Source: Phycisphaerales bacterium
GTDB taxonomy: Bacteria > Planctomycetota > Phycisphaerae > Sedimentisphaerales > UBA12454
Reading direction: 5' to 3'
Assembly: GCA_003142595.1 (NCBI GenBank)
Contig: PLMU01000010.1
Span: 34,412-98,411 of the forward strand
Length of the DNA: 64,000 bases
Below the pieces are notes generated by a model. It had not been told where the DNA came from. It searched no databases and saw only the letters and a program-made list of their open reading frames with translations. The number at the start of each line of letters is the position of its first letter. Within the stretch, counting starts at the first letter, position 1. The position numbers and the translations under genes were made by a program. This document shows, piece by piece, positions 41,437-45,333 of the stretch.

Positions 41437-41871
41437 TTAAACTTTTTTGTCGGCGGCGGGAATCGAAGATAAGAAGTCCTGAATTTGCTTTGCCAAATCG
41501 ACAATGGCCTGAAAAGTTATGGGCTTTACCAAATATAGACAACGCTTGGGGTCCAGGCCGTCAAGCACATCACGTTCAGAACGGGAAGTAGTCAAAACAA
41601 CTAAAGGTATCTTTATTAAATCCGGGTCGGTTTTGATTTCATCGATGACTTCCCGGCCGCTCTTTTTGGGCAGATTCAAATCGAGAATAATAAGGTCGGG
41701 ACGCGAGGTGCGGGAAAACTTGTAACGGCGGAAAAGATAATCCGTCGCCTGCACGCCATCATTGACCACACTGAGATGATGAGTGAGGCCGGCTTGTTCG
41801 AAGGCTTCGTTAATGAGAAGAATATCCCCGATGTTGTCTTCCACCCATAAGACCTTTAGCGATTTAGGCAT
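41437..41871 (-). CDS. Single-domain response regulator (Rcp1-like)
   Basis: 144 aa. LWVEDNIGDILLINEAFEQAG, PDLIILDLNLPKKSGREVIDEIK, VVLTTSRSERDV, YLVKP. Confidence 0.9.
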   Translation of the reverse strand: MPKSLKVLWVEDNIGDILLINEAFEQAGLTHHLSVVNDGVQATDYLFRRYKFSRTSRPDLIILDLNLPKKSGREVIDEIKTDPDLIKIPLVVLTTSRSERDVLDGLDPKRCLYLVKPITFQAIVDLAKQIQDFLSSIPAADKKV

Positions 41872-42820: not shown

Positions 42821-42912
42821 AAAGTTAAAAGTGAAAAATGAAAAATTGAGGAACCGCCGGAGGCGGAATTTGGGATTTGAAATCTGCAAAAAAAGGGATA
42901 TGATAATAATAT

Positions 42913-45333
42913 ATGAAAGAGCTCATATCAGACCCTTTGAAATTTGCGTCTCTTGTAGCGCATCAGCTTAAAGGGCCTGTTGCATCAATTAGTACAATTC
43001 TTCAGACACTTCTTGGCGAATTTGCCGGGCCGATTACGCCAAAACAGAAAGACCTTCTGCAGCGGGCCATCGGACGATGCGATGAGACTTTGCTGGCAGT
43101 TCAACGACTGATTTCGATATCGAGATCGCTGGCCGACCCGACACTATTCAAGGGGCAGGTTGAGCTTTCATCGATTGTCCGCAAAGCAGCGGTAACATAT
43201 ATCGAATTATCGCGGGTGCATAATATCGCGCTGACGACGAAAATAGAAATCGAGCCGGCCTGGGCGATAACACACGAGGCGGCGATAACAGAAGTTCTCG
43301 AAGCACTGCTTTCAAATGCGATAAAATACACGCCAGATAACGGCAGAATTGAAATACGCTTGTTGTTTAACAAGCCGGGAGATGTTTACCAGATAAGGAT
43401 TGGCGATTCGGGGATTGGAATATCACAAGAGAATATCGAAAAAGTATTTCAGCCGTTTTACAGGACGGCTGGGGCGCACGAATCGTCGCGGCCGGGGACG
43501 GGACTGGGACTGGCGTTTGTAAGAGCGGTAGTTGACGCGGCGGGCGGGAATGTGCACGTAGAAAAATCGAATCTTGGCGGAGCGGAACTTGTAGTAAATC
43601 TTGCGGCTGCGAAAAAAATCGCGGCTGAAAAAGTTTCTGGAGATAAAAAAATGAAAAGGCCAATGAAAGTAGTGATAATTGGCGGAGTGGCGGCTGGGCC
43701 GAAAGTTGCCGCGAAAATAATGCGTCTTGACCCTGACGCAGATGTAACGATTGTCGAAAAGGGCAGGCTGCTGTCTTACGCGGGCTGCGGACTGCCTTAT
43801 TATATCGGCGGAACGGTCAAGGAGCAGAGCGAACTGATGAGCTCGCCGGCGGGAGTCGTGCGCGACCCGATATTCTTCCAGCAGGTAAAGAACATTCATC
43901 TTATGAATCAGACGGAGGCGATAGAAATAGACCGTAAAAATAAACAGGTGCTTGTAAAACATCTTGTAGATAATACCGAAGAACTTCTCGAATATGATAA
44001 ACTTGTTCTGGCGACCGGGTCGGTGCCGGTTATACCGAAAATCGAAGGAATAAAACTTGGGAATATATTTACGCTTTATGGCGTAACGGACGCGGAGGGC
44101 ATAAAGGCTGCACTTGAAAGAGGCAAGGCACGCGATGTTGTGATTGTCGGCGGGGGACTTATCGGAATCGAAATAACCGAGGCGCTGGTGAAGCGGGGCT
44201 GCCGGGTGACGATTATTGAAAGACTGCCGCATATTCTGCGAATCGTCGATACGGAAATGGCGATGCTGATTACAAATCATCTGGAGGCAAACGGAGTGCG
44301 GGTGCTGACAGAGACTGAGGCGATAAAGTTCGAGGGAAAGGAAAATGTAGAATCTGTGCAGACCAGCAAAGGCGTGTATCCGGCGGACCTTGTGATTATC
44401 GCGTCGGGGCATGTGCCGAATATAGCTTTGGCTAAAAGAGCGGGAATTGAAATCGGGCCAATCGGCGGCGTGAAAGTCAATGCGAAGATGCAGACGTCGG
44501 ACGCGGATATTTACGCGGCGGGCGATTGCGTTGAGAATACAGAGATGATTACGCAAAAGCCGATTTATATGCCGCTCGGTTCGACGGCCAATAAGCAGGG
44601 CAGAGTCGTGGCGGTGAATATCTGCGGCGGGAATGATTTGTTCGGGCCGATACTGGGGACGGTGGCGTGCAAGATTTTCGATTATAACGTCGCGATTACG
44701 GGCCTGAACGAGCAGAGAGCGAAACAGGCGGGATTCGATGTTGCAACGGTTCTTGTGCCGGCGCCGGACAGGGAACATTTTGTGCCGGGAGCGAATGTGA
44801 TAATGCTGAAACTTGTGGTTGATAAAAAGAGCCGCAGACTGCTGGGCGCTCAGGCGGTGGGGCCGGGCAATGGCGATAAACGAATCGATGTCGCGGCGAC
44901 GGCGATTACGGCGGGGATGACAGTTGAGCAGATTGCGGGACTTGATTTGTGCTATGCGCCGGCTTATGCACCGGTGATTGATAATATTATTACGGCGGCG
45001 AATGTCGCGCGGAATAAACTCGACGGGCTGATGGAAGGTGTCGGGCCAATGGATGTCTGGCGGATGATGCAGGAAAAGAAAGATTTTGTGCTGCTTGATG
45101 TGCGGACGCCGGCGGAGTATCAGCAGAAGCGGATGAGCGGGTCGACGTTTATACCGCTTGCGTCGCTGCGGTCGCGACATGCGGAGCTTGATAAGAATAA
45201 GCCGATTGTGGCGTTTTGCAATTATTCGCTACGGGGATATGAGGCGGCGATAATTTTAAAACATCAGGGCTTTAAAGATGTAAAGGTGCTCGACGGCGGA
45301 CTGGAGATGTGGCCGTATGAGAAATTGCAATAG
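42913..45333 (+). CDS. Fusion: HisKA-HATPase histidine kinase / CoA-disulfide reductase-like FAD oxidoreductase / rhodanese
   Basis: 806 aa. HQLKGPVASI (H box), EALLSNAIKYTPDNG (N), IGDSGIGIS, GTGLGLAFVRAV; KVVIIGGVAAGPKVAAKIMR, LSYAGCGLPYYIGG, DVVIVGGGLIGIEITEAL, DIYAAGDCVE; VLLDVRTPAEYQ, VAFCNYSLRGYEAA. Confidence 0.9.
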   Translation: MKELISDPLKFASLVAHQLKGPVASISTILQTLLGEFAGPITPKQKDLLQRAIGRCDETLLAVQRLISISRSLADPTLFKGQVELSSIVRKAAVTYIELSRVHNIALTTKIEIEPAWAITHEAAITEVLEALLSNAIKYTPDNGRIEIRLLFNKPGDVYQIRIGDSGIGISQENIEKVFQPFYRTAGAHESSRPGTGLGLAFVRAVVDAAGGNVHVEKSNLGGAELVVNLAAAKKIAAEKVSGDKKMKRPMKVVIIGGVAAGPKVAAKIMRLDPDADVTIVEKGRLLSYAGCGLPYYIGGTVKEQSELMSSPAGVVRDPIFFQQVKNIHLMNQTEAIEIDRKNKQVLVKHLVDNTEELLEYDKLVLATGSVPVIPKIEGIKLGNIFTLYGVTDAEGIKAALERGKARDVVIVGGGLIGIEITEALVKRGCRVTIIERLPHILRIVDTEMAMLITNHLEANGVRVLTETEAIKFEGKENVESVQTSKGVYPADLVIIASGHVPNIALAKRAGIEIGPIGGVKVNAKMQTSDADIYAAGDCVENTEMITQKPIYMPLGSTANKQGRVVAVNICGGNDLFGPILGTVACKIFDYNVAITGLNEQRAKQAGFDVATVLVPAPDREHFVPGANVIMLKLVVDKKSRRLLGAQAVGPGNGDKRIDVAATAITAGMTVEQIAGLDLCYAPAYAPVIDNIITAANVARNKLDGLMEGVGPMDVWRMMQEKKDFVLLDVRTPAEYQQKRMSGSTFIPLASLRSRHAELDKNKPIVAFCNYSLRGYEAAIILKHQGFKDVKVLDGGLEMWPYEKLQ

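Follow-up and report, generated by a model that had tools for sequence, protein, structure and literature searches.

One gene in the window, the whole 64,000-nucleotide stretch of Phycisphaerales DNA analysed here, reads as a histidine kinase continued in frame into a flavoprotein reductase and a rhodanese. This raises two questions: whether the join is genuine and, if it is, what a complete redox enzyme does on a kinase core that carries no sensor domain.

The fused gene and its relatives

The gene is a single ORF of 806 codons at 42913-45333 on the plus strand, with zero internal stops in our ORF analysis of the window, in agreement with the original prediction of one 806-residue in-frame protein. 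Pfam found the expected domains in order: HisKA (residues 10-71; 22.5 bits, slightly under the cut-off of 26.9), HATPase_c (residues 122-230, 81.5 bits), Pyr_redox_2 (residues 251-545, 219.8 bits), Pyr_redox_dim (residues 585-688, 68.0 bits) and Rhodanese (residues 715-800, 60.5 bits). On the basis of Pfam, alignment, residue counts and an AlphaFold model, residues 1-232 (42913..43608, plus strand) form a soluble HisKA-type histidine kinase core, with H17, N135, DSGIGI at 165-170 and GTGLGL at 195-200. After a variable linker (43609..43662, plus strand), residues 251-700 (43663..45012, plus strand) form an FAD- and NAD(P)H-binding disulfide/persulfide reductase of the Npsr/CoADR type, as judged from Pfam and NCBIfam models and the solved proteins 6pfz, 3ics and 8a56. 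Residues 705-802 (45025..45318, plus strand) are a C-terminal rhodanese, placed by Pfam and alignment, whose CX4R loop reads C769-NYSL-R. The AlphaFold model of the full protein, built on an 8-row alignment (mean pLDDT 78.7, pTM 0.60), folds a DHp hairpin with helices at residues 8-34 and 43-74, an ATPase domain and the flavoprotein and rhodanese domains, and its confidence is low for linker residues 235-247. As had been predicted, the kinase is soluble and lacks a sensor: Pfam and a comparison of fusion N-termini, which extend roughly 10-45 residues ahead of the His, found no sensor and no transmembrane segment upstream of the H-box. The full-length protein is single copy in its source genome. 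A 585-codon, Arg/His-rich antisense ORF (43423-45180, minus strand) overlaps the fusion and is most likely a shadow frame produced by codon bias.

An assembly artefact, a missed frameshift or a misread start could each have joined two separate genes, and a break near 43640 had been named as the place to look. The frame is unbroken there, and homologues are not always encoded as two genes: many genomes encode full-length orthologues in one frame, with identities of 52-80%. Because the same in-frame join is repeated across many independently assembled genomes, and nothing was found in favour of an artefact, we give that explanation virtually no weight and regard it as ruled out. The fusion is real.

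In-frame fusions were found in more than 40 genomes from Planctomycetota, Lentisphaerae, Myxococcota and Spirochaetota. Fifteen full-length fusions beyond the window's own were present among the first 60 relatives, at 55-80% identity. Within the order Sedimentisphaerales, 26 of the 162 genomes gave a strong match, of which about 21 are fused; the remaining matches are standalone or truncated at a contig end. The fusions outside the order, in other Planctomycetota, Lentisphaerae and their phylum, Myxococcota and at least 10 Spirochaetota genomes, were located with a profile of the kinase half and further genome searches; a contig scan with the single window protein as query returned no matches where the profile succeeded.

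Some individual loci show further rearrangement. A 3.4 Mb metagenome-assembled genome labelled Candidatus Paceibacterota (G549, locus L103), probably misbinned judging by its size and content, has a fusion adjoining NiFe hydrogenase and NuoEF genes, with the reductase frame broken ahead of the rhodanese. A second fusion copy in genome G054 looks split between contigs, with its kinase half on C71 (L092 1-1721) and its reductase half on C38 (L093 1-727). In the spirochaete G555 (L245 5689-8364), the rhodanese is seemingly swapped for a LivF-like ABC ATPase tail, ahead of livH-like genes, which could reflect either a deletion or an assembly join.

Purifying selection acts on both halves of the protein. 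For the pairs that could be estimated (many were saturated at synonymous sites), the kinase half gave dN/dS values of approximately 0.08-0.19 and the reductase half values of 0.05-0.15. A tree built from 102 kinase domains, whose bootstrap was not fully settled, groups all 42 fused kinase halves and one contig-edge piece in one clade (support 95/85); the nearest free relatives are ordinary sensor kinases. A reductase tree built by a quick method places the planctomycete, lentisphaere and myxobacterial fusions, together with three unfused members, in one supported group and the Spirochaetota fusions in a separate group, with standalone reductases in between. Because the kinase tree gives one clade and the Npsr tree sets Spirochaetota apart, the two together fit either a single ancient fusion followed by losses or two fusions involving related kinases.

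These trees bear on whether the two modules are coupled at all. They might have been joined simply for co-expression, with the join itself neutral. Related genomes encode standalone Npsr proteins of 56-62% identity that branch close to the fused clade, and the linker sequence is unconserved apart from the start signal described below, both as this explanation would have it. However, the fusion has been retained across phyla with purifying selection on both halves, and the kinase tree contains no free kinase inside the fused clade, one contig-edge fragment excepted, despite the many standalone reductases. We consider a neutral join very unlikely. In two complete genomes of the same order (G023 and G019), genes for a thioredoxin and a PAS sigma-54 activator lie ahead of a standalone 566-aa reductase (L081 7020-10719 and L082 8992-12562), which gives this enzyme a different regulatory setting.

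The reductase half and the junction start

The best solved match to residues 251-800 in a full-length search is the Npsr of Archaeoglobus fulgidus (6pfz, E 9e-152). The description of this half as a CoADR-like flavoprotein was right as to type, since it belongs with the CoADR-rhodanese proteins, but Npsr-like is the better name: 6pfz is the nearest structure, and the NCBIfam equivalog model for CoA-disulfide reductase (TIGR03385) scored 409.9 bits, short of its cut-off of 578.8. AfNpsr uses NADH to reduce persulfides and polysulfides, also acts as an NADH oxidase, and is inactive on CoA disulfide (PMC7969121). By homology, the fused reductase is likely to have similar substrates, including NADH-dependent persulfide reduction.

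Both predicted cysteine motifs are present, SYAGCGLPYY with C292 in the reductase and VAFCNYSLRG with C769 in the rhodanese, and their conservation differs sharply. All 41 aligned fusions have both C539 and C292, the latter aligning with C42 of AfNpsr, the single active-site Cys beside the FAD. C769, the counterpart of the AfNpsr rhodanese Cys in the alignment, has given way to Gly, Ser or Asp in 14 of the 39 readable fusions, among them some sequences from within the order and an entire Spirochaetota group. Because C769 is so often replaced while C292 is always kept, the alignments argue that the rhodanese cysteine is dispensable and that the conserved input is something other than rhodanese-mediated persulfide transfer; what the fusions have in common is the flavin/cysteine centre.

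The linker of the window gene also contains a second potential start. GGAGAT at 43639-43644 is followed by an in-frame ATG at 43651 (M247, from the junction sequence GGAGATAAAAAAATG). Across the 41.2 kb of 17 planctomycete fused genes there are 12 in-frame pairings of GGAGA or AGGAG with a following ATG at normal spacing, and 11 of the 12 signals, the window's among them, lie exactly at the kinase-reductase junction. Standalone relatives begin at the equivalent point with a similar signal. The predicted pairing energy at M247 is unexceptional among the internal ATGs of the window gene, so the argument for an internal start rests on this conservation. On the simplest reading of the conserved signal, free Npsr is probably also made from M247. 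The signal is not essential, since it is absent from two members of the same genus (G002 and G004), from family f7 (L019-L022) and from the fusions outside Planctomycetota. The main start of the window fusion has no good Shine-Dalgarno sequence before it at normal spacing. A promoter-like TTGAAA-16-TATGAT (42877..42904, plus strand) ends 8 bases before the main ATG and is a weak hint at a leaderless mRNA; it is not above chance, as about 2.9 such sites were expected in the region scanned.

The H-box, gene neighbourhoods and the direction of signalling

The original prediction described the H, N, G1 and G2 motifs of the kinase as intact. For N, G1 and G2 this is correct: their key residues are present in every fusion, and the ATPase domain of the window protein (N135, D165xGxG, F179xPF, G195xGLGL) has an intact F box as well. 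Residues 1-230 have kinases of the HK853/WalK type as their best matches among solved structures. The H motif is intact only in part. In the window it reads AHQLKGP, with H17 followed by Q18 at H+1 and with G21 at H+4. Residue counts show the phospho-acceptor His in 39 of 39 fusions, Gln at H+1 in 38 of them and Arg in the other, with no acidic residue in any. In the set used for the kinase tree, H+1 is Gln in 39 and Arg in one of the fused kinases, compared with Glu in 51, Asp in 16 and Gln in 5 of the free kinases, where the Gln count is if anything inflated because one of two scan patterns included Gln. On these counts, H-Q is a signature of the fused clade. Position H+4, Gly in the window, is mostly Ser in relatives, with Gly, Glu and one Thr also seen.

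Among tested HisKA proteins, autokinase activity requires an acidic residue at H+1 and phosphatase activity requires Thr or Asn at H+4; the Glu-to-Gln change at H+1 in CrdS (E372Q) abolishes autokinase and retains phosphatase activity, and NtrB E140Q behaves alike (PMC3510030). Autokinase activity of the fused kinases should not be assumed, since the acidic residue beside the His is missing. Nor does Gln at H+1 imply lost activity, because natural exceptions exist: PhoQ is an active kinase with H-S, and active TctE-type kinases have H-Q. Gln at H+1 may mark a phosphatase-biased protein; with neither Thr nor Asn at H+4, the phosphatase activity of the fused kinase is also uncertain.

These observations suggest an alternative in which the fusion is a redox-gated phosphatase or pseudokinase, made a poor autokinase by its Gln, that, under the control of its Npsr module, mainly dephosphorylates, or only titrates, a regulator that another, canonical kinase has phosphorylated. 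Besides the clade-wide H-Q and the CrdS precedent, candidates for such a second kinase adjoin some fusions: GAF kinases at L073 7013-8359 and L206 8016-9413 and, by eye, kinase-like neighbours plus a regulator at L205 and L207. Set against this are the Ser, Gly or Glu at H+4, the strict conservation of ATP-binding motifs that a pure phosphatase would not need, and the active kinases just mentioned that lack an acidic H+1. We regard this alternative as possible but doubtful. In the two Spirochaetota loci (L205 713-2938 and L207 8406-10693), the genes near the fusion, again by eye, comprise a small ferritin-like protein, a membrane kinase and a regulator together, a possible partner module.

One further residue in the kinase half was considered as a thiol switch. 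C56 (codon 43078-43080, on the second DHp helix) is present in 24 of the 27 rows from outside Spirochaetota, most planctomycete members among them, and in none of the 14 Spirochaetota rows; it is ruled out as a universal thiol switch and is at most a lineage-specific thiol.

The window itself provides one candidate output. A single-domain response regulator (Rcp1/CheY-like, Pfam Response_reg) lies 1 kb upstream and divergent (41437..41871, minus strand), together with a methyltransferase gene; on the other side of the fusion are carAB- and NAD synthase-like genes, both assigned by eye. Of the regulator and redox genes seen beside relatives, the window's fusion has this response regulator alone in its vicinity, with no hydrogenase gene close. 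The regulator is a possible partner of the fusion; as a conserved partner it was rejected, because in other members of the genus the fusion lacks it as a neighbour. Elsewhere, response regulator genes adjoin the fusion on the same strand at L073, L075, L077, L236 and L237, five separate loci in two phyla, and convergently at L239, while the majority of fusion loci have no adjacent regulator.

The last of these observations would suit a reversed direction of control, in which ATP binding or His phosphorylation of the kinase-like domain adjusts persulfide/NADH turnover without the participation of a response regulator. The Npsr half retains its catalytic Cys and its folds, and the probable synthesis of free Npsr looks as though an unregulated enzyme were wanted too. 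This explanation is nevertheless unlikely, given that regulator genes directly adjoin the fusion in same-strand orientation at the five loci above, and that the free kinases most closely related to the kinase half are ordinary sensor kinases.

Genes for Rex, hydrogenase, Rnf, Nuo-like or Mrp proteins lie within 6 kb of 16 of 48 fused loci and 3 of 62 control kinase loci (Fisher p 1e-4, self-hits excluded), a comparison in which the loci are phylogenetically non-independent and the list of categories was drawn from the fused loci. The three control loci with such genes (L109, L110 and L143) are among the free kinases nearest the fused clade, a placement with weak support. Family models identified Rex-like and group-4-type hydrogenase/Nuo-like genes at L073 and L075, matched in L068; NiFe hydrogenase subunits at L239 and L103; maturation proteases at L233, L094 and L206; HydEFG, Rex and a nickel permease at L231; NuoC/D near L232 and NuoF near L204; Nqr/Rnf-like genes at L207; and an Mrp antiporter at L241. 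Mere co-occurrence of NiFe hydrogenase families in a genome was discarded as uninformative, as 143 of the 162 genomes of the order contain a match. The redox and energy context in relatives is good evidence but not proof, and it points to NADH/H2 metabolism more than to sulfur.

Because no other sensor domain exists in the protein, Npsr is the only candidate input. With moderate confidence, we favour a cytosolic two-component sensor that uses a complete redox enzyme as its input and reports the NADH/persulfide state. It is supported by the single kinase clade, selection on both halves, the invariance of C292, the adjacency of regulators and the redox context. NADH would reduce the Npsr module (FAD, C292 and bound CoA), and persulfide, polysulfide or O2 would re-oxidise it. 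The state of the flavin and cysteine would be transmitted via the linker within a homodimer, as the DHp and Npsr folds are both dimeric, and would set the balance of phosphorylation and dephosphorylation of a separate response regulator, whose output would adjust reductant-handling metabolism (NADH, ferredoxin, H2). Free Npsr from the internal start might share or buffer the signal. We infer Npsr as input, the regulator as output and the direction of the effect alike, and sequence alone cannot separate this sensor from the phosphatase, reversed-direction and uncoupled explanations.

Thus, the predicted redox-driven phospho-signalling fares well in that the fusion is real, conserved and selected, which makes signalling by the redox state of the flavoenzyme the leading explanation, and less well in that the acidic H+1 residue is absent and the rhodanese Cys is not conserved. 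More tentatively, the fusions could constitute a widespread, undescribed HK-Npsr class of soluble redox-enzyme kinases, marked by H-Q and, in planctomycetes, by dual translation into the fusion and the free reductase. In this class the reductase would be the sensor and would mainly gate the removal of phosphate from a regulator that a canonical kinase also serves, so that NADH or sulfane-sulfur state would be coupled to the H2/ferredoxin energy metabolism of anaerobes.

Relation to known systems

Sensor kinases with unusual inputs are known; a full-text search of the open-access literature found no published description of the kinase-Npsr architecture, and neither this input nor the conserved family was found described. 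A kinase core joined to a whole pyridine nucleotide-disulfide reductase offers a direct, testable path from NADH/persulfide chemistry to protein phosphorylation that needs neither a PAS nor a haem sensor and is made of two familiar parts. The fusion probably ties a phosphorylation signal directly to the internal redox state of the cell. The breadth of the family permits a search for a tractable relative, and a clade with a fixed Gln is a natural test of the need for an acidic residue beside the phospho-histidine.

The solved Npsr/CoADR-rhodanese proteins (6pfz; Shewanella loihica 3nt6; Bacillus anthracis 3ics; Enterococcus faecalis 8a56) have the same FAD/NADH folds, active-site Cys, dimerisation domain and rhodanese as residues 251-802. 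Unlike the fusion, none has a kinase, and many fused relatives differ from them in lacking the rhodanese Cys; the start of a standalone Npsr gene often corresponds to an internal start within the fusion genes. With HisKA/HATPase_c kinases such as T. maritima HK853 and WalK/YycG, the fusion has in common the DHp hairpin and an ATPase domain with N, G1, F and G2 boxes. It differs from them in its H-Q and in lacking any sensor, HAMP or membrane segment upstream of the H-box, and it carries a C-terminal enzyme where those kinases have an N-terminal sensor.

Response regulator-thioredoxin reductase fusions, known from genome annotation, also combine a flavin disulfide reductase with a two-component module, although our search of the open-access literature returned nothing on them; there the module is a receiver rather than a kinase core, and the reductase is of a different family. 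HoxJ/HupT kinases are encoded in hydrogenase clusters and receive their signal from a regulatory hydrogenase by way of a PAS domain, whereas the candidate input of the fusion is a flavoprotein.
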